Shown: one piece after another, positions 33,401 to 56,368 of the stretch
Layout: each line of letters opens with the position of its first letter
Position numbering within the stretch: position 1 is the first letter of the stretch
Origin: a virus
IMG/VR virus record: IMGVR_UViG_3300014962_000006
Coordinates: 1-59,431 of that record
Direction: 5' to 3' (one strand)
DNA: 59,431 bases
Translations under genes and position numbers: made by a program
Notes under the pieces: generated by a model
Databases searched by the model: none
Seen by the model: the letters and a program-made list of their open reading frames with translations, nothing else
Told to the model about the DNA's origin: nothing

Positions 33401-33429
33401 ATACTAGGTAATATTGTCATTTATGTCAA
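33401..33429 (-). promoter_or_regulatory. Sigma-70-like promoter for scaffold and capsid
   Basis: On the minus strand TTGACA (33424-33429), 17 bases, TAGTAT (33401-33406). The start codon of the scaffold gene is 60 bases downstream, after AGGAACT. Confidence 0.75.
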
Positions 33430-40381: not shown

Positions 40382-40416
40382 TGTACGCTCCCTTCAGTCG
40401 CTTCTATTGGGTACAA

Positions 40417-42046: not shown

Positions 42047-42593
42047 ATAGCCACTACCACTACTAAGTTACTATTTAGTACTTAGTAGCTACTTTACTTA
42101 GTAGCTTCGTGTCACGTAGCAGCTTGGACACAGCTGCGATATGCTCCTGTCTTAGTGACACTTCGGTACCTTCTACTACTCATCATTATACCCAGTAGAT
42201 GAGTAACGAGTAGTAAGCGCGGAACTGGCCAGGTGGCCAACTTGCCGGGAGCTATTCAGTGTTACTTGTTGCTAGCTAAGACTGGGATGCCCACCATCTT
42301 TTTACTCCCCCGTGTCCGGGGTCGCTCCTGAATCGAAGGGGGGCGGTGAAAGAATCACTAACCACACCCAACCAGTTTCTTAGTTCGCTCTAGGTAACTG
42401 TCTCGAATTATTGGTCCAGTTCTTGCCTGCAGGCTCGGTACTCTCAGTTCGTTACTGACTCAACAGTGATTCTTCGCCCGGTAGCTTGGATTCCGGATAA
42501 CCCGTTACGGTAGCAGTAAACTGCCGCTTCTTCATTGTATCATGACCGTAACGGGCGTGTCAATATGTTGTCTGGCTGTCAACGTACTGGGGA
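42047..42593. other. 547-base gap with no gene; leader of the terminase/fibre operon
   Basis: No convincing gene is seen on either strand. It holds a sigma-70-like promoter with an overlapping inverted repeat at 42501..42563, several CTAGT/ACTACT-rich stretches near 42050-42110, and a weaker TATAAT on the minus strand (42185-42190). A long leader RNA of about 480 bases is predicted before the small terminase candidate. Confidence 0.6.
42501..42563 (-). promoter_or_regulatory. Minus-strand promoter overlapped by an 11-bp inverted repeat (operator-like)
   Basis: TTGACA (42558-42563) and TACAAT (42534-42539), 18 bases apart, form the promoter. A perfect inverted repeat, CCCGTTACGGT at 42501-42511 and ACCGTAACGGG at 42545-42555, places one arm in the promoter spacer and the other 23 bases beyond the -10. 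Such geometry suggests a repressor or looping site. A second TTGACA is at 42575-42580. Confidence 0.65.
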
Positions 42594-43193: not shown

Positions 43194-43210
43194 AACTGTC
43201 CTCCAAGTAT

Positions 43211-43635: not shown

Positions 43636-43662
43636 TAAAGTTTTTTTGTGAGATGCCGATAC
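43636..43662 (+). promoter_or_regulatory. Sigma-28-type promoter P1
   Basis: TAAAGTTT (43636-43643), 11 bases, GCCGATAC (43655-43662). This matches the FliA consensus at 15 of 16 positions. It begins the plus arm and leads to the gene at 43711. Confidence 0.8.
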
Positions 43663-43710
43663 AGGTGTTATAAACAACGGCCTGGTGGCCAAAGATGAGG
43701 AACAACAACC

Positions 43711-44103
43711 ATGGCATATAACCCCTACTCAATTACCCTCCTAAAATGGGAGGACATCGCGACTGCCGAGTCTTCCGAATTCGGTGAGTACGAGAGAACG
43801 GGCGAGGACATGAGGGAATTAACCTATAACTGGGACCTGACTGGACTACTTCAAGCGGCCGACCAATTCGTTTGGTGGATAAGTCAGCACGTTGGACCCC
43901 ATGAGCGGCCGTCACTGGACGCCCGTTTGCGGTTTGATTACGCGTGGGAGACCGTCTATGGCGAAGATGGCGTTGAAAACTATACCAACGGAGAGACCGC
44001 CTATACCAGAGTTACGGTTTTGTTTCCCGAGGGCTTCACTGACCGCGGTCGTTTAGCTTTCAATGCGGCCGTCGAGAGAGCGCTTAATAAACTGGCCAAA
44101 TAA
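43711..44103 (+). CDS. Hypothetical protein, 130 residues; first gene of the plus arm
   Basis: Directly downstream of promoter P1, with GAGG upstream of the ATG. It is acidic and Tyr/Trp-rich (SITLLKWEDIATAESSEFGE; LTYNWDLTGLLQAADQF). It is likely the first gene expressed after infection from this side. Function not recognised. Confidence 0.7.
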   Translation: MAYNPYSITLLKWEDIATAESSEFGEYERTGEDMRELTYNWDLTGLLQAADQFVWWISQHVGPHERPSLDARLRFDYAWETVYGEDGVENYTNGETAYTRVTVLFPEGFTDRGRLAFNAAVERALNKLAK

Positions 44104-44114
44104 ATAATTTAACC

Positions 44115-44130
44115 GGGCCCCTCGGGGCCC
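44115..44130 (+). terminator. GC-rich hairpin after the first plus-arm gene
   Basis: GGGCCC (44115-44120), loop CTCG, GGGCCC (44125-44130). Only a weak T-run follows (CTTTTG at 44140-44145), so it may attenuate rather than end transcription. Confidence 0.5.
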
Positions 44131-44161
44131 CTAGTGAAACTTTTGTAACAAAGGAGTTATT

Positions 44162-44359
44162 ATGCTTTTTTCTTTTTTAATAAGCAATGAGGACCAAACG
44201 GTCTTCAGAAATGAGGTCACGGGCCTCATTCTCACAGCAAGCGCCAGAGACTTGTTATTATGGGGCTCCGAAGGGCGGTACTGCGGTACTGTCGTCAAAT
44301 GGAGCCAGTATTATGTTGGTTCTAAACCGTTTATTCACGTGACGGAGGTTGTGTCATGA
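44162..44359 (+). CDS. Hypothetical protein, 65 residues
   Basis: AAAGGAG lies seven bases before the ATG. A hydrophobic N-terminus (MLFSFLISN) leads into a mixed sequence (GLILTASARDLLLWGSEGRY). Its TGA overlaps the next ATG. No family recognised. Confidence 0.65.
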   Translation: MLFSFLISNEDQTVFRNEVTGLILTASARDLLLWGSEGRYCGTVVKWSQYYVGSKPFIHVTEVVS

Positions 44360-44505
44360 CCCCAGTGCAAGAAATAACGCACCTAATAGGTGCAATAGAC
44401 CGTCTACGGTCTGAGGCTGATAGCGGTGAAGCGCTGGAGCGCTTGAGAACCCTGGAATTGTGTTTAATTGAGGCGGCCCGCCGCCTCGGACAGGAGGCCG
44501 TATGA
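44356..44505 (+). CDS. Small helical protein, 49 residues
   Basis: ATGA-coupled to the genes on either side. The sequence (MTPVQEITHLIGAIDRLRS and a RLRTLELCLIEAARRLG run) is one amphipathic helical protein. It was not named as a gene by length alone; the perfect coupling supports it. Confidence 0.6.
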   Translation: MTPVQEITHLIGAIDRLRSEADSGEALERLRTLELCLIEAARRLGQEAV

Positions 44506-44588
44506 TAATATTCATACTTCTCTATCTATCCCTAATTATTCTTTCACCGTTCCTGATTGTTGCCCTAGTGACTAGGGCATTGAGCTAA
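44502..44588 (+). CDS. 28-residue membrane micropeptide
   Basis: MIIFILLYLSLIILSPFLI continues for nine more residues (VALVTRALS). It is nearly all membrane helix. The ATG overlaps the previous stop, and GGAGG lies upstream. The terminator at 44601..44630 follows. It could modify a host membrane process. Confidence 0.55.
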   Translation: MIIFILLYLSLIILSPFLIVALVTRALS

Positions 44589-44600
44589 AACAAAAACCGG

Positions 44601-44630
44601 CCGGGCCCATTGCGGCCCGGTTTCTTTTTA
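44601..44630 (+). terminator. Intrinsic terminator
   Basis: CCGGGCC (44601-44607) pairs with GGCCCGG (44614-44620), followed by TTTCTTTTTA. It ends the first short plus-arm transcript from P1. Confidence 0.9.
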
Positions 44631-44657
44631 GTGGAACTAAGCCAATGCACACCCCTG

Positions 44658-44730
44658 TCACATCACACCGACGATGCGTCACACCGCTATCACATCACAC
44701 CGACGATGCGTCACACCGCTATCACGTCAC
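44658..44730 (+). repeat. 32-bp tandem repeat, two copies plus a partial third
   Basis: The unit at 44658-44689 is repeated exactly at 44690-44721, and TCACGTCAC begins a third with one change. Each unit holds a GACG-ATG-CGTC inverted repeat and TCACACC motifs. It lies just after the terminator and outside clear genes, so a protein-binding array or recombination relic is possible. Confidence 0.75.
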
Positions 44731-44771
44731 ACCCCCGTCACCTATTTTCTTTTCACCGCCCAAAGCCTGAA

Positions 44772-44824
44772 CAGGTAAAGGCGGCAAAGGACAGTGATAA
44801 CTGCCCGATACAACAGGTAAAGGC
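44772..44824 (+). other. Two CAGGTAAAGGC copies flanking a hairpin element
   Basis: CAGGTAAAGGC at 44772-44782 and 44814-44824 surround the hairpin element GGACAG (44789-44794), loop TGATAA, CTGCCC (44801-44806), GATACA. A weak frame from 44610 to 44849 runs through it and ends with QVKA-containing peptide; I consider it doubtful as a gene. Confidence 0.5.
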
Positions 44825-44871
44825 CGATGGCATGATAGATGCAATATAAATAGCAATAAGAGGAGAGACGT

Positions 44872-45084
44872 ATGGAAACTTTCTACCAATTTCTCGAGGA
44901 CAATCATTATTTTTGGGATAGGAAAGACCAGAACCACATATGGGTAGCCTTAAATGGCTACCGTTGCTATGACGATAGGCGCACATCGCTTGAGGCTGCT
45001 GCTAAACAGGTAAAGGCGGTTCTTGTCGGAGAAGATTTCGATTCCCATTCCGGCAAAACGTTTTATGTCTTTAAACATAAATGA
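44872..45084 (+). CDS. Hypothetical protein, 70 residues
   Basis: ATG after AGAGGAGAGACGT. The protein is Tyr/Trp/His-rich (FYQFLEDNHYFWDRKDQNH) with an AAAKQVKAVLV segment encoded by a copy of the 11-mer CAGGTAAAGGC at 45007. No family recognised. Confidence 0.65.
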   Translation: METFYQFLEDNHYFWDRKDQNHIWVALNGYRCYDDRRTSLEAAAKQVKAVLVGEDFDSHSGKTFYVFKHK

Positions 45085-45094
45085 GGTAAAGACC

Positions 45095-45259
45095 ATGAGC
45101 ATCAAATATAAATTGGACCTTAGTAAATACAATTTGGTGGAGCTCGAGTGCTTCCTCGAGGAAGGCATCATCACCGTTGATGAACTTGATAGCGAGGTAA
45201 AGGCGCGAGGCTTGACTCACGACTGGGTCACACCCCATGGTAGTAAAGTACAGCACTAA
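45095..45259 (+). CDS. Small protein with short helical domain, 54 residues
   Basis: ATG at 45095 after GAGGTAAAGACC. The sequence (KYNLVELECFLEEGIITVDEL) looks like a short helix-turn-helix-type or leucine-rich pair of helices. A variant 11-mer repeat is in the frame at 45194. No family recognised. Confidence 0.6.
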   Translation: MSIKYKLDLSKYNLVELECFLEEGIITVDELDSEVKARGLTHDWVTPHGSKVQH

Positions 45260-45266
45260 TCGTCAA

Positions 45267-45292
45267 GGGCACTTTAGTGCCCGATACAGGAG
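45267..45292 (+). promoter_or_regulatory. Hairpin element joined to a ribosome binding site
   Basis: GGGCAC, loop TTTA, GTGCCC (45277-45282), GATACA, then GGAG (45289-45292), the ribosome binding site of the gene at 45300. Confidence 0.65.
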
Positions 45293-45299
45293 ACCCATT

Positions 45300-45527
45300 A
45301 TGCTCTTTTCTATCAGGTATGGTATGACAGGTAAAAGCCGGGAATGTGAAGCAGAAGTTTGCTATCGGACGGGTACCCTAGTTTCCGGCTACTGGCTCGA
45401 TGATGACTCTGAAATGACGGACGAGGACCTCCTGATGGTAGAAGAGGCCTTCGAGTATGAACTACGGGAAGAGGCCATCGGCTACCGAGCTGAAGAGGCT
45501 TACGACAGGTGGAAGGACGGAGAATGA
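45300..45527 (+). CDS. Acidic hypothetical protein, 75 residues
   Basis: I start at the ATG at 45300, seven bases after GGAG, not at the earlier in-frame codon. It reads MLFSIRYGMTGKSREC then becomes very acidic (DDDSEMTDEDLLMVEEAFEY). An acidic DNA-mimic or regulator is possible, but this is only composition. Confidence 0.65.
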   Translation: MLFSIRYGMTGKSRECEAEVCYRTGTLVSGYWLDDDSEMTDEDLLMVEEAFEYELREEAIGYRAEEAYDRWKDGE

Positions 45528-45567
45528 TTGGGTACTTTGTTGAAGTAAAAAAGTTGCAAAATAGTAC

Positions 45568-45594
45568 TAAAGATTTTTTACGTTCGTCCGATAA
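45568..45594 (+). promoter_or_regulatory. Sigma-28-type promoter P2
   Basis: TAAAGATT (45568-45575), 11 bases, TCCGATAA (45587-45594). The spacer and -10 are the same as in P3. AAGTAAAAAA upstream resembles an A-tract UP element. The gap 45528-45800 also holds the hairpin element at 45675. Confidence 0.8.
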
Positions 45595-45674
45595 GTAAGT
45601 TATAAGACGCGGACAGGATGCCGCACCAAGCTCCAAATATACTCCAGTTTAGCTACGTTAGGACAAATTGTCAA

Positions 45675-45690
45675 GGACACGTAAGTGTCC
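45675..45690 (+). promoter_or_regulatory. Hairpin element
   Basis: GGACAC, loop GTAA, GTGTCC, followed by GCTACA. It lies in the leader of the P2 transcript, about 110 bases before the next gene. A second perfect hairpin, CCATAC-CTTT-GTATGG, lies at 45762-45777. Confidence 0.6.
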
Positions 45691-45800
45691 GCTACAAGTC
45701 AAGGCTTACCACCACAACGCTATGGACGGCGTTCCTCCCTTGACACTACCCAGTAATCAACGCCATACCTTTGTATGGTATCACAATAGGAGACCCCGAT

Positions 45801-46130
45801 ATGAGCACGATTTACAACAAGGCAGTGAAACTCTTCAAAGTGAGACCCGAGTTACTCGAAGATGCCAAAGATGTCGTTAGTTTTTGGACCGAGGATGAGC
45901 TCGAAACTCAGTGCAATGACTTGCTTGACGAAACTTTACCTGAAGTAGTTATCGGTAACTATTCCTATTCCCCTTCTCGTGTCTTGGCTGAAGTTGACCC
46001 CATCGCTCACCGCCAAGAGGTACTAACATATATTGACAACATGGACGTGGTAGAAGTCAACGGACTTTACTTTGACCAAAATGAGATGGAAGATTTTATT
46101 GAACAACACACCACCAGCGAGGTTATATAA
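45801..46130 (+). CDS. Hypothetical protein, 109 residues
   Basis: ATG with GGAG eight bases upstream; first gene after P2. It is acidic and helical (LLEDAKDVVSFWTEDELETQ) with a C-terminal DFIEQHTTSEVI. No family recognised. Confidence 0.7.
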   Translation: MSTIYNKAVKLFKVRPELLEDAKDVVSFWTEDELETQCNDLLDETLPEVVIGNYSYSPSRVLAEVDPIAHRQEVLTYIDNMDVVEVNGLYFDQNEMEDFIEQHTTSEVI

Positions 46131-46131
46131 T

Positions 46132-46362
46132 ATGCGTCGTGAAACTGCCACAATAGCCGAAATTGATACCATCCTAGTTGGGAATACCCCCCACCACTTT
46201 GTGCAGGTATATTATACCAGCTCCGATAATAAATTATCGGGGTGGCTACGGTCTACCCAGCCCCACTACATTGGTGCCCTTGTTGAGGTAGCCTTCACCG
46301 AGAAGCAGGACAGATTAGGGAATAGTTACGAGCAACCCTCTATCGTGGGGGTAATCAGATGA
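46132..46362 (+). CDS. Hypothetical protein, 76 residues
   Basis: ATG immediately after the previous stop, with GAGG nine bases upstream. Beta-rich (VGNTPHHFVQVYYTSSDNKL). It overlaps the next gene at ATGA. No family recognised. Confidence 0.65.
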   Translation: MRRETATIAEIDTILVGNTPHHFVQVYYTSSDNKLSGWLRSTQPHYIGALVEVAFTEKQDRLGNSYEQPSIVGVIR

Positions 46363-46679
46363 GCATCAGTACCATACTAATTACTGGTGGTGGACTTCTA
46401 CTCGGATACTTCTTTGGCAAGAATCTTTACATCCTCTACCGAGTCAAGAAGATACTAACTGAAGGCAAAAATGCCCGCTTTGAGATTGAATGGGCTAGCG
46501 GTGCGGTTACTTATCGGATACTCAAATACGCCGAGGAGAGACATTTACCGATGCTGTGTCGGATACTAGCCACAGTAACTATGAGACAAGACGGGGATAC
46601 CCTAGTATCTGACCAGGTAAAGGCCGTGAAGATTGTTCATAGAAACTGGCCGGACCAGGAAAAGAGTGCTGCGTTATGA
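46359..46679 (+). CDS. Membrane-anchored protein, 106 residues
   Basis: An N-terminal membrane helix (STILITGGGLLLGYFFG) is followed by a cytoplasmic-type domain. The C-terminal SDQVKAVKIV is encoded by the 11-mer at 46614. It is ATGA-coupled to both neighbours. Function unknown. Confidence 0.65.
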   Translation: MSISTILITGGGLLLGYFFGKNLYILYRVKKILTEGKNARFEIEWASGAVTYRILKYAEERHLPMLCRILATVTMRQDGDTLVSDQVKAVKIVHRNWPDQEKSAAL

Positions 46680-46849
46680 AAACCGAAACCTTTTTTATGG
46701 ACAGTGAAGGGGATGCATTAAAGTTCGTGGCCAAATGTGCCGAGGAGGGGATAGAAGCGGCGTTGTTACCAGCCAAAAAAGAAGATGGCCGCTTAGTTTA
46801 CCCAGTCAAAGTAAAGTATCACTTCAAGAATGTGGCTAAGGAAGATTAA
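46676..46849 (+). CDS. Small acidic protein, 57 residues
   Basis: ATGA-coupled to the membrane protein. Reads MKTETFFMDSEGDALKFV with a later VKVKYHFKN beta segment. No family recognised. Confidence 0.6.
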   Translation: MKTETFFMDSEGDALKFVAKCAEEGIEAALLPAKKEDGRLVYPVKVKYHFKNVAKED

Positions 46850-46861
46850 CCCAGCGACAAA

Positions 46862-46888
46862 GGACAGCATAGCTGTCCGTTACAGGAG
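46862..46888 (+). promoter_or_regulatory. Hairpin element joined to a ribosome binding site
   Basis: After GCGACAAA comes GGACAG, loop CATAG, CTGTCC (46873-46878), GTTACA, GGAG (46885-46888). This is the clearest member of the family, just before the GTG start at 46897. Confidence 0.7.
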
Positions 46889-46896
46889 AACATGCC

Positions 46897-47115
46897 GTGA
46901 ACGACGTAATCGGATTTGACAATGTAGCTTACTTTGATTCAGCACAGGAACGTGAATGGTTCTTGGCCAATGTGGAAGGTATCCCCGCTGTGACGATGAC
47001 CAAATTACCCGCCATAACTCGAGACGATATCGAAATGTGGCCGTTGGTTATCGTCTTTGGGGAACCGACCGAGACCCCAATTGACTTACCACCCACTATC
47101 AACGTCCCATTTTGA
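46897..47115 (+). CDS. Hypothetical protein, 72 residues, GTG start
   Basis: GTG is preceded by GGAG at eight bases; the in-frame ATG at 46892 opens another frame that stops at once. Contains an FDSAQEREWFLANVEGIPAV segment. No family recognised. Confidence 0.6.
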   Translation: MNDVIGFDNVAYFDSAQEREWFLANVEGIPAVTMTKLPAITRDDIEMWPLVIVFGEPTETPIDLPPTINVPF

Positions 47116-47126
47116 GAGGAGCTTTT

Positions 47127-47417
47127 ATGAGTAAGAGTGAAATCACTTCCAGTATCCAACTCGCAGCCCGGTTAACAGATGCCCTTTACCGGGAGGGAAT
47201 TGTCAACTCCGACAGCGCTCAAGCCCTGTTTGATGTCCTCGCCGACGCGCTCGAAAAAAGACCCGATGTGGTAGCTTCGGTTAGTGAGGACCTTACTACC
47301 CGGCAACAGGATATCGATGCCTCCTTCAGGGAAGTACTCAATCGACTCGACGAGCTAGAGCAAGACTATCTCCGTACCTATCACAAAACCATCGAGGTGC
47401 GTTCCAATGAAGACTGA
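47127..47417 (+). CDS. Helical protein, 96 residues
   Basis: I chose the ATG at 47127 after GAGGAGC. Nearly all helix, with a coiled-coil end (FREVLNRLDELEQDYLR). The tail overlaps the small frame at 47407. Function unknown. Confidence 0.65.
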   Translation: MSKSEITSSIQLAARLTDALYREGIVNSDSAQALFDVLADALEKRPDVVASVSEDLTTRQQDIDASFREVLNRLDELEQDYLRTYHKTIEVRSNED

Positions 47418-47505
47418 GATGAATCCAACCAAGTTACTAAGGAAGAGACTTGTTTATAACTTAAGCGCCAGAATTAATAAGCTAAAAAAGGAGGGTAAAA
47501 TATGA
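47407..47505 (+). CDS. 32-residue basic peptide
   Basis: A short frame overlapping the ends of both neighbours (ATGA at 47502). Lys/Arg-rich (KLLRKRLVYNLSARINKLKK). The packed layout supports translation, but a chance frame is possible. Confidence 0.4.
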   Translation: MKTEMNPTKLLRKRLVYNLSARINKLKKEGKI

Positions 47506-47879
47506 GCGACAATAAAAAAGACAATGTCATTCCCTTCATTAAGGAAAAAGAGACGAGAGCTATTATCAAGTTCCAGTTTAGTGAGGCGAGTAAGAGGAAA
47601 GTAAAGGAAACTCTAGACAATATTAACGCACAAATGGAAGACTTAAAGGAATCAGTAAGGAAGCAGAGGGAATACCTTTCAGGTACGGCACATGTTGAGA
47701 TGCTCGCCCCCGAGGAAAGGCGGGCCGAAGAGATGACCAGCACCCTCAATGAAAGTGAATTAGAAAAAGAGTACAGGAGAAAGCAAGATGAGATGCGGAA
47801 AAAAAGAGAAGAGAATAACCGGAGCGTTACTAGGTCTTATAATCTCCGCCATCCTTCTCGGGACGACAGGAAGAAGTGA
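47502..47879 (+). CDS. Coiled-coil protein, 125 residues
   Basis: Charged helices (KETLDNINAQMEDLKESVRK) make up most of it, with a basic C-terminus (RSYNLRHPSRDDRKK). It overlaps the start of the transglycosylase gene by 92 bases. It may be a small chaperone or regulator for lysis, but there is no evidence of that. Confidence 0.6.
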   Translation: MSDNKKDNVIPFIKEKETRAIIKFQFSEASKRKVKETLDNINAQMEDLKESVRKQREYLSGTAHVEMLAPEERRAEEMTSTLNESELEKEYRRKQDEMRKKREENNRSVTRSYNLRHPSRDDRKK

Positions 47880-48405
47880 GCCACTGGGTCCCCTCGCACC
47901 CGAATTAATGGCTTGGCATGATTGTGGGGTAACGCTGGCCAGCGACAAGGCTGTAAATCCTGAACAGGTAAAGGCCGCGATGTACGCTCTCGGTACGAGC
48001 AGCGTTGATACCTCGCCCCGCTTCTTGACCTTCGCTGCTACTGTTATCGCCGCCGAATCGGGTTTCAATCACCGAGCCGTTTCAGGCTCGGGTGCCTACG
48101 GCCTCATGCAAGTCACCCTCATAGGAGCAAAGGAGGCAGCCATCCAGTGCCGCCTTCCTTTTGCTCGGGGGGTTGAAGACAGTGTCCTCCTAGCGAGGCT
48201 AATGGATAGCCGAGCGAATGTCAAGTATGGAACCTGTCTCTTGAAGTATTATTTGGACCAAGTGAATGGGGACCGTACTTTAGCGTTAGTTCTTTATAAT
48301 GGGGGCTATGTCCAGTTGACACGCTTCCTCAATACCGGTACCTTATCTAAAGAGACAACGGAGTATGTCCTCCGTGTCAGTTCTTACCTTGGGAGATGTA
48401 GATGA
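47788..48405 (+). CDS. Exported lytic transglycosylase (SLT-like)
   Basis: A 205-residue protein with an N-terminal membrane or signal helix (TGALLGLIISAILLGTTG). The catalytic Glu90 is in AAESGFNHRAVSGSGAYGLM, the signature of Slt-type lytic transglycosylases that cleave peptidoglycan glycan strands, and LVLYNGG follows. The start lies inside the coiled-coil gene, preceded by GGAG. It is placed in the early arm, far from the virion genes, and coupled to the exported ClpP-like gene. It could be an early wall remodelling enzyme or an endolysin with signal-anchor. Confidence 0.8.
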   Translation: MRCGKKEKRITGALLGLIISAILLGTTGRSEPLGPLAPELMAWHDCGVTLASDKAVNPEQVKAAMYALGTSSVDTSPRFLTFAATVIAAESGFNHRAVSGSGAYGLMQVTLIGAKEAAIQCRLPFARGVEDSVLLARLMDSRANVKYGTCLLKYYLDQVNGDRTLALVLYNGGYVQLTRFLNTGTLSKETTEYVLRVSSYLGRCR

Positions 48406-49109
48406 AGTCTTTTATCCTCACTTTAATAGCGCTGTTTTGTAGCTCAACTGCTTTTTCAAAAGGGAAAGTTGAGTTTGACCCAGCTAGGACTATCCTCCTT
48501 AATGGAGTAATTAGTGGTGAAATATATGAGCCGATGGTAAATACTATGAAAGCTTTGGCCAAAGAAGGGGACACTATCAACATCATCATCTCCTCACCGG
48601 GTGGGGAAGTAGTTGCGGGCTCCCTCCTCATCGACAGAATGGAACAGATGAAATTGGCCGGTATCAAGTTCCGATGTGCAGTAAGGGATGTGGCTGCATC
48701 CATGGCATTCCAAATACTGCTACACTGTAACGAGCGGTATGCTACCCCTCATTCCTTTCTCCTCTGGCACCCAGTTAGAATATTTGCTCGTGGTGTGATG
48801 ACATCAGACATGGCGTATACTTTGGCTAGTCAATTAGCGGAAGCGGATGAGGTCGCATTGCACGACCTGAAAGCGTACCTGATTATGCCTGAAGCTGAGC
48901 TACTATGGCACTTCCGAAATGAGACACTCCACCAAGCTATCAACCTAATGCTCCTATCACCATCCTTCTTCAAGAAAGTAACGAATGATATCAATGGACT
49001 GTACTCATCTGATGTTGCCCTTGATACCTCTTCCCTCTCTTCCGGTTTCGGTATCAATCAAGTCATTTACATCCACGAGAGATTCCTATCACCGAAGAAG
49101 AATAAGTAG
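48402..49109 (+). CDS. Exported ClpP-like serine protease
   Basis: A 235-residue protein. The N-terminus (MKSFILTLIALFCSSTAFSK) is a clear signal peptide. The ClpP fold motifs are present: NIIISSPGGEVVAGSLLID, the catalytic Ser100 in AASMAFQIL, and His123 in FLLWHPV. A Clp-type protease normally works in the cytosol with an ATPase; an exported phage copy is unusual and resembles SppA-style placement. ATGA overlap couples it to the transglycosylase. Possible targets are periplasmic or membrane proteins, or a holin partner. This last part is inference. Confidence 0.75.
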   Translation: MKSFILTLIALFCSSTAFSKGKVEFDPARTILLNGVISGEIYEPMVNTMKALAKEGDTINIIISSPGGEVVAGSLLIDRMEQMKLAGIKFRCAVRDVAASMAFQILLHCNERYATPHSFLLWHPVRIFARGVMTSDMAYTLASQLAEADEVALHDLKAYLIMPEAELLWHFRNETLHQAINLMLLSPSFFKKVTNDINGLYSSDVALDTSSLSSGFGINQVIYIHERFLSPKKNK

Positions 49110-49132
49110 TAAGTAACAGGTACCTTGCGACA

Positions 49133-49217
49133 AAGGACACGCCGCTCTCATGGGGAGAGCGCCCTAAAGGGCTGACCGAAGGTCAGGCGACATCTCTGAT
49201 GCCCGTTACAGAAAGGA
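49133..49217 (+). promoter_or_regulatory. Extended hairpin element before the 49225 gene
   Basis: Starts GCGACAAAGGACAC like the other elements, then CGCTCTC/GAGAGCG (49143-49149 with 49155-49161), GCCC-TAAA-GGGC, TGACC-GAA-GGTCA (49173-49185) and finally TGCCCGTTACAGAAAGG before the ATG. It looks like a multi-stem leader RNA rather than one hairpin. Confidence 0.6.
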
Positions 49218-49224
49218 AAAGAAT

Positions 49225-49491
49225 ATGAGACTCAGACTAGCGTTCAAACTTCATGGTGAGGAAGCGGAGTTAGCCCGGCAGATGGCCGATGCTGCAGGCA
49301 TCGAGCCCGATAAAATAGCCAAGCTTGCGATGCAAAGATATATGCAAGATGTAATGGACCGAGCTTACGCTTACCAAAAAGAAATGGAGAAGAACAATGT
49401 ATCAGGACAATCCAGCAATCCCGACTCAGTCAACTCTTCTGGAGTTGTTCCGTCTCCATCGGACGCCCTTCCTAGCCAGACACCAGGATAG
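49225..49491 (+). CDS. Helical protein, 88 residues
   Basis: ATG with GAAAGGAAAAG upstream. The first 60 residues are amphipathic helix (AELARQMADAAGIEPDKIAK); the last third is Ser/Pro-rich. A ribbon-helix-helix-like DNA-binding protein is possible, but not certain. The next gene overlaps it by 95 bases. Confidence 0.6.
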   Translation: MRLRLAFKLHGEEAELARQMADAAGIEPDKIAKLAMQRYMQDVMDRAYAYQKEMEKNNVSGQSSNPDSVNSSGVVPSPSDALPSQTPG

Positions 49492-49639
49492 CCGTCGGCT
49501 CTGGAAGATACTTGGCTTCGGGCCGAATGGTGATTACGTGGTTGGGTGGGTGGTCGGCTACGACAATCCGGAGTTGGTCAAGTTAAAGAAAGATGAACGG
49601 GCTTGGGTGTATATCAACAGTGTGGGACCGAATGAGTGA
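49397..49639 (+). CDS. Hypothetical protein, 80 residues
   Basis: ATG with GGAG seven bases upstream, in a different frame from the gene it overlaps. Contains FRLHRTPFLARHQDSRRLWK and a GWVVGYDNPEL segment. No family recognised. Confidence 0.6.
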   Translation: MYQDNPAIPTQSTLLELFRLHRTPFLARHQDSRRLWKILGFGPNGDYVVGWVVGYDNPELVKLKKDERAWVYINSVGPNE

Positions 49640-49646
49640 GGCCAGT

Positions 49647-50591
49647 ATGAGTTTACTTAATATCAATCTAACGAACTTATTCTGGTCCGGCATTGCTGAT
49701 GACAGGGAGAAGCATTCGGAAGGGGAAGTTGCCAAGCTTGGAAACCTCCGGGCTGGGGACAGCTCGGTCATGACCAAGGGTGGCGATATTATTGGGGGCT
49801 GTCACAGGAAGTCCTTCATTCGGAGCTTCGCTGGTATCGAAGGGGAAGTTCCCGAACCTGACAATCTACTGATGTTTGAGCTGGGTAAAGCTAACGAGTT
49901 GATATGGATGGATAAACTGAGACGCAGCTGGCCCGGAGCAATTAAGCAAGAAGAAGAAATCCCCATCAAGTGGACGACATCGAGGGGTGTTGCTGTTACA
50001 GGTCGACCCGATATCGTACTCTGTAAAGCGGACAATAGTCCTGTACTCGGCATCGAGCATAAAGCAATCTGCTCCATATGGACAGCGAGGGATGTATCCT
50101 TTGAAGTTGCACCGAAAGTTAAGCATCTTATCCAAGCGGCCCACTATGCGTGGAAGTTGGGAGTCCCTTACCGGTTGGTATATAGTCAATATACTAACTT
50201 CGCCATACCTGATTGGGCTGGTAAGATGTTTCCACCTTCTCATCCTTTAGTAGAAGTAAATGAAAAGGGTAATCCCAAACATGTCAAACCCCATATCACT
50301 GTCTACGAAGTAGGCTTCGGGCAGGGCAACGTTATCCAATACCGTATCGAAGGTGCCCCGACGTGGAGTGTTACCCCTTGGTCAACATCTGACATCGAAC
50401 GATTTTATGAGTACGTTTCTTCTATGACCGAGAAGAAGGTGCTAGGTCCCCGGCCGACACCGGTAAAGGTGGATGGCAAAAAGGCTAGCTACAGTGACTG
50501 TTCCTATTGTCCCCTGGTAGAAGTGTGTGATAAATATGAAAACAACTGGGAGAAGTGGCATGAAGAAGTCAGTAAATTTGGGAAAAGCTAA
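49647..50591 (+). CDS. Cas4/RecB-like PD-(D/E)XK nuclease with C-terminal cysteines
   Basis: About 314 residues from the ATG at 49647 (GAGG five bases upstream); an ATG at 49632 is an alternative. The nuclease core is GRPDIVLC then GIEHKAICS, giving D and E-x-K. Cysteines in the N-terminal GCHRKSFIRS and the C-terminal CSYCPLVEVCDKY fit the iron-sulfur cluster of Cas4/AddB-type nucleases. A role in end processing during phage recombination or replication is likely. It lies 1 kb upstream of the polymerase. Confidence 0.75.
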   Translation: MSLLNINLTNLFWSGIADDREKHSEGEVAKLGNLRAGDSSVMTKGGDIIGGCHRKSFIRSFAGIEGEVPEPDNLLMFELGKANELIWMDKLRRSWPGAIKQEEEIPIKWTTSRGVAVTGRPDIVLCKADNSPVLGIEHKAICSIWTARDVSFEVAPKVKHLIQAAHYAWKLGVPYRLVYSQYTNFAIPDWAGKMFPPSHPLVEVNEKGNPKHVKPHITVYEVGFGQGNVIQYRIEGAPTWSVTPWSTSDIERFYEYVSSMTEKKVLGPRPTPVKVDGKKASYSDCSYCPLVEVCDKYENNWEKWHEEVSKFGKS

Positions 50592-50868
50592 TTTGTCCGA
50601 AGAGGAACTTGATGAGTATTATAAGGAAGCGGCTATGGACAGCCTCCTTTACTGGGTGAACTGTACCATATCAGCAGCGGGAGCCAATGCCACATTGACT
50701 ATCCTTACTGAGATGCTGGCAACATCCATTACCCACCTCGTCCCAGTGAAGCAAGTTGATAGGGCAGAGACAGTCATCTTGGACTTGATAAAGGAAAGCT
50801 TTGATATTGTGAGGGAGGGCAGTTCTGATGAGAATAAGGTGTCCAGTAAATCCCCCGACTTAAACTGA
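50560..50868 (+). CDS. Hypothetical helical protein, 102 residues
   Basis: I start at the ATG at 50560, seven bases after GGAG, inside the end of the nuclease gene. Helical and acidic (LSEEELDEYYKEAAMDSLLY). No family recognised. Confidence 0.65.
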   Translation: MKKSVNLGKANLSEEELDEYYKEAAMDSLLYWVNCTISAAGANATLTILTEMLATSITHLVPVKQVDRAETVILDLIKESFDIVREGSSDENKVSSKSPDLN

Positions 50869-50874
50869 TGTATC

Positions 50875-50899
50875 GGACACCTTCGGCGTCCTTTGTCGC
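50875..50899 (+). terminator. Hairpin in inverted orientation; possible terminator
   Basis: GGACACC (50875-50881) pairs with GGCGTCC (50885-50891) around a TTC loop, then TTTGTCG. Read on the minus strand it is the hairpin element GCGACAAAGGACG. It may both end the plus transcript and act as the mirrored element. Confidence 0.5.
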
Positions 50900-50935
50900 A
50901 TGGTTCTGGTGCTAAGATAGAAGTAAAAAAAGTAC

Positions 50936-50962
50936 TAAAGTTTTTTTACGTTCGTCCGATAA
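50936..50962 (+). promoter_or_regulatory. Sigma-28-type promoter P3
   Basis: TAAAGTTT (50936-50943), 11 bases, TCCGATAA (50955-50962). An AAGTAAAAAAAG A-tract precedes it, as in P2. Confidence 0.85.
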
Positions 50963-51020
50963 GAGTAGTATGAATGAACTGAGCATGTCGCTCAGTCTGT
51001 ATCAAATGAGGAATAGTTTT

Positions 51021-51305
51021 ATGGCATTCAACAATCAGTCTCAAGGGAATCGTTTCGGTAACAAGTCTGCTGGTAAACCAGCCAGCTCTGGTACTCCCCG
51101 GGCCGCAGGTCCCAAGCCCGAAGTAGTTCTCTCCTCCGGTCTCTTCAAGCCCAAGTCTGAGAAGAGCAAGGCTCTCGCTTCCGTGGCCACGACTATCGAG
51201 CAAGACATCCCAGCTGGTACGACTGTGTATATCGACGTCTACGCGAACGAAGAAATCGTGGACGGGAAACCCACCCACAAACTCCTTATTAAAAAGCGTG
51301 CCTAA
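51021..51305 (+). CDS. Small basic protein with disordered start, 94 residues
   Basis: First gene after P3, ATG at 51021 with GAGG nine bases upstream. The first half is Gly/Ser/Asn/Lys-rich (NNQSQGNRFGNKSAGKPA); the second half is a short beta domain (TTVYIDVYANEEIVDGKPTH). A nucleic-acid-binding protein ahead of the polymerase is plausible, since no single-stranded DNA-binding protein was otherwise seen. This is a guess from location and composition. Confidence 0.6.
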   Translation: MAFNNQSQGNRFGNKSAGKPASSGTPRAAGPKPEVVLSSGLFKPKSEKSKALASVATTIEQDIPAGTTVYIDVYANEEIVDGKPTHKLLIKKRA

Positions 51306-51364
51306 TAACAAAGAGCGGTCGTAAAGAAGGCCGCTTGGTAGCCAGTCTTTGAGCGATTGGTACT

Positions 51365-51388
51365 GGGAGGTGTAGCGCCCTCCCTTTT
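51365..51388 (+). terminator. Intrinsic terminator
   Basis: GGGAGG (51365-51370) pairs with CCTCCC (51379-51384), followed by TTTT. It may limit expression of the 51021 gene apart from the polymerase. Confidence 0.8.
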
Positions 51389-51483
51389 ATATTAGTATGT
51401 TAGCTAATTACGAGTAGCGTTGGCGGGACTACTTTACGCAGTTGCTACTGGTAAAGACATAACTTCATGATATGAGGGATGAA

Positions 51484-51624
51484 ATGATACTCGCAGTCTT
51501 CATTTACTTCTGTGCCCATCATGGTTTATTAATTGCCACTCCAGTTGTAATCAATACAATAGCAGTAGGTGCCGTGGCCACTACATATAGTGACAAGGTG
51601 AAAGTTAACTTGCTGCCAAAGTGA
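51484..51624 (+). CDS. 46-residue membrane protein
   Basis: A membrane-type sequence (MILAVFIYFCAHHGLLIAT, then PVVINTIAVGAVATTY) with GAGGGATGAA before the ATG. It ends four bases before the polymerase ribosome binding site. Too short for most gene finders. Function unknown. Confidence 0.6.
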   Translation: MILAVFIYFCAHHGLLIATPVVINTIAVGAVATTYSDKVKVNLLPK

Positions 51625-51632
51625 GGACATCC

Positions 51633-53837
51633 ATGGACCACGTTACCCTTACTACCCATCCCCGTTTCGTACTCATTGAGCCGAAACCGACACCCGCACG
51701 AACCGGCAGTAACTACCAAGTAGTGTGCCCCCCATGCATCGACCACGGGGAGCGGTTACTCAAGTCCGCCCTCGCTTCCCCGGTAGTGGCCATCGACTTC
51801 GAAACACGAGGCAACGATTACTCGCTCGTATTTACGGAGTCTTACGTAGTGGGCGTCGGCCTAGCTTGGGACAGAGGTAGTTGTTATTTCTCGACAGATG
51901 ATTTATCAGACAAAGAACTGGAACTACTAATTGAACTTTTGACCGAGCATAAGGGATTGATAGCCCACAACGTTTACTTTGACGGGGGGTGGATAAGGCG
52001 TGACCTAAGTCAGCATGCCAACTGGTTAGCGTGTACGTTCGGTCTCTACATGCAGTGCGCTAGTGAGGGTTTCGAGGGCCAAAGGTGGGGTCTCAAGGAA
52101 GCTATGGTGGACGTCTTGATGTGGCAATCAACCAATGAAATTGACTTGGATGAATGGCTGATTGCTAATGGATACAAGAAGCAGAACAACGCTCCCCTGA
52201 AAGGGGAAATGTGGAGGGCACCTGCGTCCATACTTGGGAAGTATTGTGTGTTGGATGCCGAGGCCACGTACTTACTTTACACGGAACACCTAGCCCCGCT
52301 TCTTAAACGGTTCCCCAAACTAGCCGATTATCACCGGCAAGATTTCTTGCCGCATGTCATGGTTCACATCGACCAAAAGATAGCCGGCATCATGACGGAT
52401 AGGAAACATTGGGTGGGGTATGCTACTGAGTTGGAAGCGGCTATCGTAAATAGTGAACAGACGTTCCGCAACCATTTCCTAGTCAAACCGCACGTCGATG
52501 CTTGGGAAAGGGAAGCCCTTGAGGGATTCCTCGCGACTGAGCCCCCCCGCTACAAAAAGAAAAAGGAACGGAAGGAACCTGCTAGGTACACCAAGAGTGG
52601 GGAAGTATCCAAGAACTGGCTGAAGTGGAAAGCCCTTGAAGAGGAGCCGCCAGTTGAAAGTCTTAACTGGAAAAGGTGGCATGACAAAAAGGTTGGTATT
52701 GAGTTTGGTATCGAGCCCAGCTACTCCTTCAACCTCCAATCGGGTGACCACTTGCGGTGGCTCATGTACGAGAAGCTCAAGCATAAGGTATTGTTGCAGA
52801 CCGAGAGCGGCTTACCTGCGATAGGTGAGGATGCTTTGCAAAGTATGGGAGACGTGGGCCAGGTCCTTATCGGGCGGGCGCTCAAGGTGAAGGAGCTCAG
52901 CTATGTATCGGATTATATCGAGCGAGTGGAGCATCGGCCCACGATTCACCCCTCCTTTAAGATGCCCGGTACTGTGACGGGTAGGCTAGCTGGGAAGTCA
53001 CCCAATCTCCAACAGTTGCCGAAGACGAAGGGTGCCCTGTCGGGTTTCATTTCCCGGCCCGGCCATAGCTTCGTCGACTGTGACGTGAACGCATTGGAGA
53101 TGGTGGTGACAGCGGAGCTGTCGCAGGATAAGAACTTGTTGGCTTTGTATGGGCCAGGTGCCAAGAAGAATGACATCTACCTCTTCTACGGTAGCATGAT
53201 GGCGGGCATTGGTCCGCGACTTACGTCGCTGGGATATAGTCCCTATGACCCAATACCGGAAGTAATGGATGCTACGAAGAAGGCATTTAAGAAGGAGAGG
53301 TCAATCGCTAAGCTCCTCATCCTGTCCGATAACTACGGCTCGGGAGTGAAAAAGAAACAGAAGATACTCTCTTTGAATGGTGTGGATATGTCCCTCCACG
53401 AAGTGGAGGATATGCACGATTCCCTCATGGCTGCCAAAAGCGGAGTGCTGGAGTATGTAGCTTGGTTACAAGATGAGTGGAGAGCGAATGGTGGCTGGGT
53501 TGAGAATGGGTATGGCCGCCCGATATGCGTCGATGAAAAATACCTTAAGGATATATTAAACCGCGTGGTACAATCTACTGGACACGACATCCTCCAACTA
53601 TACGCACGTATCGCAGCTGACTTGCTTACGGCGGCTGGTGTGAGTTGGCGTCCAATAGTGATGGACTGGCATGACGAAAGTATCATCGAGGTACCCGACG
53701 AACAGGTTGAAGACGCGAAACGAATAATGGAGATTGACGCATACCGGGAATTGAATAGAATTCTAGGTGGAACTTGTCCCCTGAAGGGGAGTGCTGCCGT
53801 GGCGAAGACCTTAGCGGGAATCAAATTAGAAGAATAA
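51633..53837 (+). CDS. polA: Family A DNA polymerase
   Basis: About 734 residues from the ATG at 51633, preceded by AGGA. The 3'-5' exonuclease part shows VVAIDFETRG, LIAHNVYFDG and YCVLDAEATYLLY (D-E, D and Y-D motifs). Polymerase motif A is FVDCDVNALEMVV, the O-helix is KERSIAKLLILSDNYG, and motif C is VMDWHDESI. In the O-helix the residue aligned with E. coli Phe762 is Leu. No 5'-3' exonuclease domain is present. It is the phage replicase; no DnaB-type helicase or primase was recognised, so priming is unexplained. Confidence 0.95.
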   Translation: MDHVTLTTHPRFVLIEPKPTPARTGSNYQVVCPPCIDHGERLLKSALASPVVAIDFETRGNDYSLVFTESYVVGVGLAWDRGSCYFSTDDLSDKELELLIELLTEHKGLIAHNVYFDGGWIRRDLSQHANWLACTFGLYMQCASEGFEGQRWGLKEAMVDVLMWQSTNEIDLDEWLIANGYKKQNNAPLKGEMWRAPASILGKYCVLDAEATYLLYTEHLAPLLKRFPKLADYHRQDFLPHVMVHIDQKIAGIMTDRKHWVGYATELEAAIVNSEQTFRNHFLVKPHVDAWEREALEGFLATEPPRYKKKKERKEPARYTKSGEVSKNWLKWKALEEEPPVESLNWKRWHDKKVGIEFGIEPSYSFNLQSGDHLRWLMYEKLKHKVLLQTESGLPAIGEDALQSMGDVGQVLIGRALKVKELSYVSDYIERVEHRPTIHPSFKMPGTVTGRLAGKSPNLQQLPKTKGALSGFISRPGHSFVDCDVNALEMVVTAELSQDKNLLALYGPGAKKNDIYLFYGSMMAGIGPRLTSLGYSPYDPIPEVMDATKKAFKKERSIAKLLILSDNYGSGVKKKQKILSLNGVDMSLHEVEDMHDSLMAAKSGVLEYVAWLQDEWRANGGWVENGYGRPICVDEKYLKDILNRVVQSTGHDILQLYARIAADLLTAAGVSWRPIVMDWHDESIIEVPDEQVEDAKRIMEIDAYRELNRILGGTCPLKGSAAVAKTLAGIKLEE

Positions 53838-53860
53838 TAAGATGCAAAGGAGAAACTAAG

Positions 53861-54085
53861 ATGATGACCCCGACCGAAGTATTCTTTTGGGTAGCCTTTA
53901 CGATGTGCTCTGAAACGAAGTTGATACTACCCCCCGGCGAGAAGGAAACAGCAGAGGACAGGTCTGCAGTAGCCCGAGCCAAGCATCACTGCCCGGAGTT
54001 GTATGAGAATTCCCCCTGCGCTAGGGTAGTGGAACGACGCGCCCACCTCAACTACTGGGTAACTTGCGGGGGATATGACAAATGA
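53861..54085 (+). CDS. Cysteine-containing hypothetical protein, 74 residues
   Basis: ATG with GGAG eight bases upstream. Four cysteines are spread over the sequence (TMCSETKLIL, HHCPELYENSPCARV, VTCGG). Possibly a metal-binding protein. The stop overlaps the next ATG. Confidence 0.6.
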   Translation: MMTPTEVFFWVAFTMCSETKLILPPGEKETAEDRSAVARAKHHCPELYENSPCARVVERRAHLNYWVTCGGYDK

Positions 54086-54288
54086 CCATCCTCGATACCA
54101 TTCATTACTTCATCCAAGAGCACCTAGATAGTACTGGGGAATACCCAGATGTACTCTACCTGAGGCAAGATGAGTATGACTTCTTCATCGAGTGGGCTTC
54201 AGCATACAAGATGAGTACAACTCACTATAATCATTACAGTCTCCCCCACAAAGTAAGAATAGAGTGGGATGGGAAGGTACTCCATTAA
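54082..54288 (+). CDS. Hypothetical protein, 68 residues
   Basis: ATGA-coupled to the upstream gene. Tyr/His/Asp-rich (DTIHYFIQEHLDSTGEYPDV). No family recognised. Ends just before the P4 promoter. Confidence 0.6.
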   Translation: MTILDTIHYFIQEHLDSTGEYPDVLYLRQDEYDFFIEWASAYKMSTTHYNHYSLPHKVRIEWDGKVLH

Positions 54289-54298
54289 GAGATTCTAC

Positions 54299-54325
54299 TA
54301 AAGTTTTTTTACGAACAGCCGATAC
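54299..54325 (+). promoter_or_regulatory. Sigma-28-type promoter P4
   Basis: TAAAGTTT (54299-54306), 11 bases, GCCGATAC (54318-54325). It is the cleanest copy and drives the lipoprotein metalloprotease gene about 35 bases downstream. Confidence 0.85.
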
Positions 54326-54359
54326 TATAATAGTGTCCAGTAAGTGATAAGGAGACATT

Positions 54360-54857
54360 ATGAAGTATTGGTTAGTGACTCTCTTCTTGTTGGTTAGCTG
54401 TGGTACTACCGAGCATTGCCGAAGTACCCCAGCCTTTCACGGTAATGACGGGAAGCCCGGTCCCTGCTACCCTTCCCAAATAGCATACCGTATCCACCCC
54501 ACTGTGGAGTACGCAGTGGAACAGTTCGCAGCTGACGCAGTAGGCAGGGATGTTCCTTGCTACACTGTGGACACGGTGGGTTTCCTATCCAAGCTACCCC
54601 CGGAGCTGGAGGATAAAGATGTAGTCGGCTTCTGTAAGTTTCCCATCGAAGTCCGCTTCATGAAAAGGTTTTGGGACAACGCATCAGCCAATCAAAGGCT
54701 AGCGTTAGTCTACCACGAACTGGGCCACTGCGCTTTGAGACTGGAGCACGATGACACGATGCCAGATATTATGAATAGTTATCTACTACCCGAATACTTT
54801 GTTGAGAAAGAATGGGATAGTCTCGTCAATAAACTTTTCGAAAGGGCAAAGAGATGA
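54360..54857 (+). CDS. Lipoprotein zinc metalloprotease
   Basis: A 165-residue protein. MKYWLVTLFLLVSCG is a lipoprotein signal with the lipid Cys at residue 14. The motif HELGHCALRLEH at 119-130 gives zinc ligands H119, H123 and H130, with catalytic E120. PDIMNSY follows as a Met-turn. The H-to-third-H spacing is seven rather than the six of classic metzincins, as in some secreted HELGHC lipoproteins I recall. It would act outside the cytosol, attached to a membrane. Directly under P4; ATGA-coupled to the next gene. Confidence 0.75.
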   Translation: MKYWLVTLFLLVSCGTTEHCRSTPAFHGNDGKPGPCYPSQIAYRIHPTVEYAVEQFAADAVGRDVPCYTVDTVGFLSKLPPELEDKDVVGFCKFPIEVRFMKRFWDNASANQRLALVYHELGHCALRLEHDDTMPDIMNSYLLPEYFVEKEWDSLVNKLFERAKR

Positions 54858-55087
54858 GCAGTTCTTACGTCAAGGCTAGAGCAGACCAGAAGAGGAAACT
54901 GAAGGGTACCTATCACGATAAACTCTTCATTGCCGCAGCGCAAGTCCTACCTTCCGTGGTACTCCGCTCCCCTCCCGACGCTACTGAAAGTGAAATGGTA
55001 GATGAGGCTGTCATCTTAGCGCGGTCCTTACTAGCGGAACTTGGTTACAAGTATCCCGGGATGGGAGAAGAAAATGAACCCGAGTGA
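54854..55087 (+). CDS. Hypothetical protein, 77 residues
   Basis: ATGA-coupled to the metalloprotease. Mixed helical sequence (YVKARADQKRKLKGTYHDK) with a C-terminal acidic tail. No family recognised. Confidence 0.65.
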   Translation: MSSSYVKARADQKRKLKGTYHDKLFIAAAQVLPSVVLRSPPDATESEMVDEAVILARSLLAELGYKYPGMGEENEPE

Positions 55088-55244
55088 TATGGACATTGCC
55101 GAGGAACCGATTAGGTGGCTGGTGGTATTTCCGGTGGGGTTACTGGCCTTGTCTTTGACAGCCTTCCTCGTGGCCATATCCTGGCCCCCTTATATCGTGT
55201 ACCGACTTATCCGGTACGCTTACTACATCCTCTCGGAGAAGTAA
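55074..55244 (+). CDS. Small membrane protein, 56 residues
   Basis: I start at the ATG at 55074 with GGGAGAAG before it. A hydrophobic segment (WLVVFPVGLLALSLTAFLVA) is likely to span the membrane, with a Tyr-rich C-terminus. Might be a holin or membrane regulator. Confidence 0.6.
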   Translation: MNPSDMDIAEEPIRWLVVFPVGLLALSLTAFLVAISWPPYIVYRLIRYAYYILSEK

Positions 55245-55245
55245 C

Positions 55246-55548
55246 ATGACAGTCTTTATAGTGGTCTCCTACTTCCTGGCCTTTGCCCGAGTCCAAATTG
55301 TCGAGAATGACAACGGTAACTACCGACATCTCTTCTCCTTTCGGGATAGTCAGAATAGGGATATCCTACTTCACTGGGAGGGGAAGACTAGACTCGGCGA
55401 TGAAGATACCCGCATGTGGATTCATATTCACGAAATGGAATGTAGTCGGGTGAATACTATAGATGAGATTGAGACGGGGGGTTCCCTTTATCAAGCATCT
55501 AGTAGGACTTGGCTATGTACCGCTAAACTTGTGCAAGGGGATAGATAA
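55246..55548 (+). CDS. Hypothetical protein, 100 residues
   Basis: ATG with GGAG seven bases upstream. N-terminus (TVFIVVSYFLAFARVQIV) is hydrophobic, the remainder polar. Overlaps the resolvase start by one base. No family recognised. Confidence 0.65.
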   Translation: MTVFIVVSYFLAFARVQIVENDNGNYRHLFSFRDSQNRDILLHWEGKTRLGDEDTRMWIHIHEMECSRVNTIDEIETGGSLYQASSRTWLCTAKLVQGDR

Positions 55549-56072
55549 TGATAAGTAAGAAAACGAAACTCTACCAGAATGTTGATAGATTGAAGGGACC
55601 CCTGACATACGGGAGTGTCCTCGTCATTGACCCCTCGATAGGGAGTACATCCTCCTCACCTGGGTGGGCCTATTACCAGGCCGGCCACAAGATTGACAGT
55701 GGTATTATTCACACCGGGGGGAGTCACCTCCACCTTTGGCAGAGGGCAAGGAAGCTTGGCCAGTCATTGAATGTACTATGTAATGAATACAAAGTGGATG
55801 TCCTTGTCTACGAAGATATCCCAGCTACTAGCGGCTTCAATCAAAATGCTATTGCTAGTCTTCTCAAAGCAGTCGGTATCGTGCTAGCATGTACTACAAG
55901 CTCCCACGTACTGGGAGTCCACCCCGCATCTTGGAAGAAGTATGTCAGACCAGAATATAAAAAAGGCGACGAAGCAGATGCCATCGAAATCGGACATATC
56001 GTTATCTCCCTCGCCAGACATATCCAAGCTGCCGGAGATACTGATGGTGATGGGAGTTCCCTTTCGGATTGA
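55548..56072 (+). CDS. RuvC-like Holliday junction resolvase
   Basis: A 174-residue RNase H-fold resolvase candidate. The acidic residues lie in VLVIDPSIGSTSSSPGW, in VLVYEDIP, and in KGDEADAIEIGHIVIS, which matches the D, E, and D-D pattern of RuvC-type enzymes. It would resolve branched DNA before packaging. Stops inside the next gene. Confidence 0.75.
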   Translation: MISKKTKLYQNVDRLKGPLTYGSVLVIDPSIGSTSSSPGWAYYQAGHKIDSGIIHTGGSHLHLWQRARKLGQSLNVLCNEYKVDVLVYEDIPATSGFNQNAIASLLKAVGIVLACTTSSHVLGVHPASWKKYVRPEYKKGDEADAIEIGHIVISLARHIQAAGDTDGDGSSLSD

Positions 56073-56343
56073 GCTAACCGATACCGGGGAGGAGAATGTC
56101 GGGGAGACACTCGGCCTCCACCGGAAGATAGCCATCAGTCAAGACCTTGATAAGAAAAGGATATGGTCAGTTTTAGTTCACGAGTGGGCGCACGCGGTGT
56201 TGTACGCGAATGGGGTAGCTAACATCTTAGACGAGAATGTCGAGGAAGTAATAGCTCAAAGTTTGGAGCATGCTGTTGAGGAGTTACTCAAGCAGATTGG
56301 CCCCGAACTAATTCACGTCTTTAGTAGTGAAGAAAGAGACTAA
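56044..56343 (+). CDS. Zinc protease-like protein (HExxH), 99 residues
   Basis: I start at the ATG at 56044 with GGAG six bases upstream, giving a short overlap with the resolvase. WSVLVHEWAHAVLYANG carries HEWAH, with a downstream Glu in EEVIAQSLEHAVEEL, as in small ImmA/IrrE-type metalloproteases. These usually cleave repressors. The stop codon TAA forms the first bases of promoter P5. Confidence 0.65.
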   Translation: MVMGVPFRIELTDTGEENVGETLGLHRKIAISQDLDKKRIWSVLVHEWAHAVLYANGVANILDENVEEVIAQSLEHAVEELLKQIGPELIHVFSSEERD

Positions 56344-56368
56344 AGTTTTTTAGTCTTGGTGCCGATAG
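56341..56368 (+). promoter_or_regulatory. Sigma-28-type promoter P5
   Basis: TAAAGTTT (56341-56348), 12 bases, GCCGATAG (56361-56368). It overlaps the stop codon of the upstream gene and precedes the small lipoprotein gene. Confidence 0.7.

Follow-up and report, generated by a model that had tools for sequence, protein, structure and literature searches.

In the usual account a phage begins with the primary sigma factor of its host and then takes over; some phages, phiEco32 among them, carry a sigma factor that is divergent. The flagellar sigma factor FliA (sigma-28) has the published consensus TAAAGTTT-N11-GCCGATAA, and TTAAG-N16-CCGATA is found at two thirds of the attack-phase promoters mapped in Bdellovibrio (PMC3627812). 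The stretch considered here is the IMG/VR virus record IMGVR_UViG_3300014962_000006 (59,431 nucleotides, analysed whole and called the window), from an uncultured podovirus-like phage, and its elements of interest are five FliA-like sites between positions 43,636 and 56,368. These sites are probably promoters for host RNA polymerase carrying a sigma-28 (FliA) family factor, which would drive the arm of replication and accessory genes, the structural arm being read by sigma-70.

The pattern TAAAGNTTN{10,13}CCGATA has exactly five matches on the two strands of the window, all on the + strand, with no match in 100 dinucleotide shuffles and none in the window for the reversed pattern. TAAAG[TA]TT-N11/12-[GT]CCGATA likewise occurs five times, always on the + strand, where none is expected. 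Each site has 14-15 of the 16 letters of the published FliA consensus. The five sites, and a possible sixth, are:

43636..43662, + strand: predicted sigma-28-type promoter 1, TAAAGTTT-N11-GCCGATAC, ahead of the gene at 43711
45568..45594, + strand: predicted sigma-28-type promoter 2, TAAAGATT-N11-TCCGATAA, ahead of the operon from 45801; counterparts in G006 and G009
50936..50962, + strand: predicted sigma-28-type promoter 3, TAAAGTTT-N11-TCCGATAA, ahead of the DNA polymerase operon (51021 on); counterparts in five relatives
54299..54325, + strand: predicted sigma-28-type promoter 4, TAAAGTTT-N11-GCCGATAC, ahead of the lipoprotein-like gene at 54360; counterparts in G004, G006, G010 and G048
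56341..56368, + strand: predicted sigma-28-type promoter 5, TAAAGTTT-N12-GCCGATAG, ahead of the gene at 56395; counterparts in G006 and G007
2345..2372, + strand: possible sixth site (14/16), TAAAGTTC-N12-CCCGATAA, ahead of gene 2420-2881

A sequence-only reading had reported these five sites, and its positions, its match to the FliA consensus, its spacers (11 bases in four sites and 12 in the last) and the spacer start TTTTACG common to three of them were all reproduced. The five exact sites are non-coding, in an arm of which only about 10% is non-coding, and they have one orientation, in gaps ahead of translation starts preceded by a Shine-Dalgarno (SD) sequence (43711, 45801, 51021, 54360 and 56395). 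The further statement that all lie in intergenic spots just before genes also holds, with 26-58 nucleotides from the -10 element to the start except at the second, which has a leader of about 206 nucleotides; the last overlaps the final 3 bases of the preceding gene. Their identity as sigma-28-type promoters is well supported, and initiation there by a sigma-28 holoenzyme is likely. The sixth site was left uncounted because it falls within a conserved reading frame (LLK[FY]HEEN.DKKL), which explains its conservation and makes it inseparable from that of the codons. Because the - strand also has two 14/16 sites (58477 and 15207), a weak match is not diagnostic by itself, and a scan for TAAAGTTTTTTTACG was too unspecific.

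Relatives were collected with the large terminase (TerL), for which a scan found 30 and a profile scan 56 loci, with 40-87% TerL identity to the window. Those compared comprise four near-complete genomes (G004, G006, G007 and G010) and two fragments (G005 and G009). Wherever these six have an exact match (10/10), TerL is on the other strand; one of the ten is common to G004 and G005, which are almost copies of each other. Sites of at least 14/16 number 24 on the replication strand versus 4 on the other in the window plus the four near-complete relatives, the chance expectation being 0-0.2 per genome and strand, and at four positions the sites precede orthologous operons. At the polymerase operon, compared in six genomes, mean identity is 88% in the -35 octamer and 92% in the -10 octamer, whereas the spacer and the flanks (40 bases upstream, 45 downstream) are at 32-36%, barely above unrelated sequence. 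As the octamers are kept while spacer and flanks diverge, purifying selection acts on exactly the sigma-28 elements.

The consensus of the phage clade is C-T[AC]AAGTTTTT, spacer, T-GCCGATAAG, the core letters of which are partly built in because sites were picked by consensus match; the flanking C and G are not. Spacer length varies between 11 and 12 among relatives, with 19 and 15 sites respectively in the whole clade. Replication-strand sites were also identified in more distant relatives, namely G048 (TerL 48%), the phage of an Oligoflexales metagenome-assembled genome (MAG; contigs C146 and C86) and contig C22 of a Nanoarchaeia-labelled bin. On the TerL tree, the presence and absence of sites needs about two changes.

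The terminal 84 bases of the window repeat the first 84 with one mismatch, so that the window amounts to a full circular genome of about 59.3 kilobases (kb). Its genes form two arms, which point away from each other on either side of a non-coding stretch (about 42.0-43.7 kb). Starting at 43.7 kb and passing the circular join to about 4.8 kb, the + arm comprises replication and accessory genes: DNA polymerase A, RuvC-like resolvase, helicase, C5 methyltransferase, HNH and dATP/dGTP pyrophosphohydrolase. The - arm, from 43.2 to 4.8 kb, contains the terminase, portal, candidate capsid, adaptor and tail fibre genes. Principal genes and sigma-70-type sites are:

51621..53837, + strand: family A DNA polymerase gene, replication arm
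39..1367, + strand: helicase gene, replication arm, past the circular join
2420-2881, + strand: dATP/dGTP pyrophosphohydrolase gene
36132..37589, - strand: large terminase gene (TerL), structural arm, the query for relatives
33839..35872, - strand: portal protein gene, structural arm
42534..42563, - strand: sigma-70-type promoter, TTGACA-N18-TACAAT, head of the structural arm
40148..40177, - strand: perfect sigma-70-type promoter, TTGACA-N18-TATAAT, intact in three relatives
40416..40445, - strand: sigma-70-type promoter, TTGAAA-N18-TATAAT, 35 nucleotides ahead of gene 40004-40381
33401..33429, - strand: sigma-70-type promoter, TTGACA-N17-TAGTAT, 60 nucleotides ahead of gene 32220-33341
14336..14364, - strand: sigma-70-type promoter, TTGACA-N17-TATAGT, 22 nucleotides ahead of gene 11864-14314

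Sigma-70 sites were scanned as plain TTGACA-N16-18-TATAAT and scored out of 12. At 10/12 or more the window has 17 on the structural strand (5.4 expected) and 6 on the replication strand (5.6 expected), and the four near-complete relatives agree, with 19 vs 5, 12 vs 2, 20 vs 6 and 14 vs 5. At 11/12 or more the five genomes sum to 23 on the structural strand and 3 on the replication strand, and many sites are directly ahead of structural genes. Canonical sigma-70 sites are therefore in excess on the structural arm and not on the replication arm, which divides the genome by sigma factor in the window and in the four relatives alike.

Neither sigma-70 region 2 nor region 4 domains were found at E<=10 in the five near-complete genomes, the control genomes being positive, and the phage appears to encode no sigma factor of its own. 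With none detected, the sigma choice of the host would serve as the switch: its sigma-28 holoenzyme would transcribe the replication arm, which would need an active sigma-28 as in a motile or dispersal cell, and its primary sigma-70 holoenzyme would transcribe the structural arm with the particle genes. The factor reading the sites would be the flagellar FliA, and the two arms would be expressed in that order, the arm called early by the sequence-only reading being that of the replication and accessory genes. Confinement of infection or of expression to motile cells, as the sequence-only reading proposed, is plausible. The gene at 42594-43220 (- strand) is endonuclease VII-like and has weak PHROG matches to the T4 Srd anti-sigma and to a sigma-70 decoy, which the endonuclease matches outscore; a sigma-70 modulator there would suit a scheme of two sigma factors, although the endonuclease assignment is the better one.

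Similar sites are present outside the clade. In IMG/VR, scanned with TAAAGTTTN{11,12}GCCGATA, at least several unrelated contigs have multiple sigma-28-type sites among the matches listed, so the feature is not unique to TerL-related phages. The clearest is G032 (35 kb, GC fraction 0.325, with portal and terminase; L238-L239), where about nine sites are found, most of them directly ahead of operons. G034 (L243) has one site ahead of an rIIA gene, and several each were identified in G031 (L240-L242), G033 (L244), G035 and G036, the last three being candidate viral contigs. In G031 to G034 the sites are near-perfect and stand ahead of operons.

With respect to the host, relatives in named assemblies were limited to the Oligoflexales MAG, a Thiomargarita assembly and an archaeal bin. 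In the Oligoflexales bin, homologs of replication-arm genes, the phage polymerase among them, sit on a second contig. The 5-kb contig from Thiomargarita and the archaeal bin were interpreted as phage contigs that had been co-assembled or mis-binned. Contig C22 (L188 / G038, 47,247 bp), labelled Candidatus Nanoarchaeia archaeon, is a clear phage relative with 20 homologous genes in order, and its bin is probably contaminated. A profile search gave one further TerL relative among the 57 other genomes from the phylum to which the Oligoflexales MAG belongs (Bdellovibrionota) and none in 397 other Pseudomonadota, a difference that is not significant alone. Several genomes of that phylum (G068-G073) contain 20-45 near-perfect sigma-28 sites each, with spacers mostly of 12 bp and also of 11, which suggests that sigma-28 may be a global regulator there; the sampled Pseudomonadota have 0-4 per genome, mostly with an 11-bp spacer. 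Spacer statistics fail to point to either group, because the phage ratio of 19:15 lies between them and differs from each.

A search of 58 genomes for CRISPR-spacer-like matches to 20 kb of the window gave none that was convincing; the best short one (24 bp, E 0.002) was judged to be chance, and the one with E 1.8e-24 falls in the methyltransferase gene, a mobile and uninformative gene. TerL and portal have no usable cultured relative among 50,697 phage records, a near-identity search of the phage collection with the right arm gave no match, and an Rfam search gave nothing.

The predator host put forward by the sequence-only reading is moderately favoured by weak evidence: the Oligoflexales contigs, the TerL match within the phylum and its site-rich members with their 11/12-bp spacers. 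A Bdellovibrionota bacterium, in which sigma-28 can be a global regulator, is given slightly less than an even chance of being the host. More tentative is a phage family of predatory Bdellovibrio-like hosts, in which replication genes would be expressed through sigma-28 in the free-swimming attack cell and particle genes through sigma-70 after prey entry and growth, so that the attack-to-growth switch itself would order the two arms. Several observations weigh against sigma-28 control and such a host. Two sister lineages, G041 and G042, share the replication genes and have no sigma-28-type sites; in G042 the replication strand bears three sigma-70 sites at 11/12, as if this lineage had switched over to sigma-70. 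The two MAGs with TerL matches are not among the site-rich genomes, and the isolated tailed Bdellovibrio phages phi1422 and phi1402 have no excess of sigma-28-type sites. Factors of the sigma-28 family can also have non-flagellar roles. The Bdellovibrio microvirus phiMH2K (L257) does have a 13/16 site at 3345-3371, in an intergenic gap, where 0.08 is expected, though a single one.

In one alternative, a sigma-28-family factor unconnected to flagella, for instance WhiG-like or like the chlamydial sigma-28, reads the sites and the link to motility is wrong. Factors of similar consensus and other roles do exist, but site-rich Bdellovibrionota genomes also exist and the FliA of Bdellovibrio controls attack-phase genes, flagellar ones included; this alternative is considered unlikely. 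A phage sigma factor or activator without a recognisable sigma domain, its likeness to FliA being convergence, is also held to have a small probability. Many early-arm proteins are of no known function and phages often bring their own promoter-specificity factors; however, the sites match a cellular consensus at 14-15 of 16 positions with its spacing, T[AC]AAG and the 11/12-bp variation are as in bacterial genomes, the same motif is present in unrelated phages, and no sigma domain was found in the five genomes. That the repeats are binding or structural elements at operon heads and not promoters is very improbable, for although the promoter assignment comes from sequence and the same arm has other repeats of unassigned role, two separated octamers are kept around a spacer that varies in sequence and length, in a single orientation and, in four of five cases, 26-58 nucleotides ahead of SD-preceded starts.

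Among those other repeats, CAGGTAAAGG occurs five times in the window (44772, 44814, 45007, 46614 and 47965), always within the replication arm and on its + strand; in relatives its counts on the replication and the other strand are 4:0 (G006), 5:1 (G007) and 2:0 (G004), and there it is directly behind sigma-28 sites. Short hairpins AGGRCAN..TGYCC followed by G-N-TACA are found in replication-arm gaps at 45265-45295, 45673-45695 and 46861-46890 (+ strand), two of them just ahead of an SD, and are possibly an RNA processing or translation element. At 44648-44743 a gap contains three tandem 32-bp GC-rich copies of CACACC..TCACATCACACCGACGATGCGT. The first genes behind promoters 4 and 5 (54360-54857 and 56395-56571, + strand) have lipoprotein-like signal starts (..LLVSCGT.. 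and ..LLSSCAH..) and perhaps encode surface-exclusion lipoproteins.

If the replication arm is indeed under sigma-28 and the structural arm under sigma-70, infection would depend on the motile or developmental state of the cell after DNA entry, beyond adsorption, and no replication-arm transcription is predicted without sigma-28. The sites would also provide a sequence-only marker for phages of hosts dominated by sigma-28, possibly including predatory bacteria, the phages of which are poorly known. The sequence-only reading knew of no phage with this arrangement; literature searches, with subscription papers outside their coverage, agree in giving no description of sigma-28 promoters across a phage gene arm, although the unrelated IMG/VR phages share the feature.

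Among known systems, the FliA class 3 flagellar promoters (TAAAGTTT-N11-GCCGATAA) are alike in both octamers, in spacing and in position ahead of gene starts; the phage sites differ in that they would drive replication genes and in that a spacer of 12 is nearly as frequent as one of 11 (19:15). The attack-phase promoters of Bdellovibrio (PMC3627812) share the sigma-28-type motif within a global programme, their N16 matching the 12-bp spacer of some phage sites, but they serve bacterial genes and mostly have TTAAG, whereas the phage has mostly TAAAG or TCAAG and is only tentatively linked to hosts of this group. Flagellotropic phages such as Salmonella phage Chi are alike in that infection would favour motile cells; the restriction of Chi, however, acts at adsorption, a scan of 49.9 kb of Chi gave weak sigma-28 matches only, and no sigma-28-driven phage genes are described in a review of flagellotropic phages (PMC9266447). 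Phages of the T4, T7 and lambda type, with early genes read from host sigma-70, are alike in entry via host RNA polymerase with no polymerase of their own, and differ in that here sigma-70 sites are enriched on the structural arm and sigma-28-type sites on the replication arm. Use of host sigma factors by phages is known; an arrangement in which one arm uses sigma-28 and the other sigma-70 is, so far as the check reached, undescribed.

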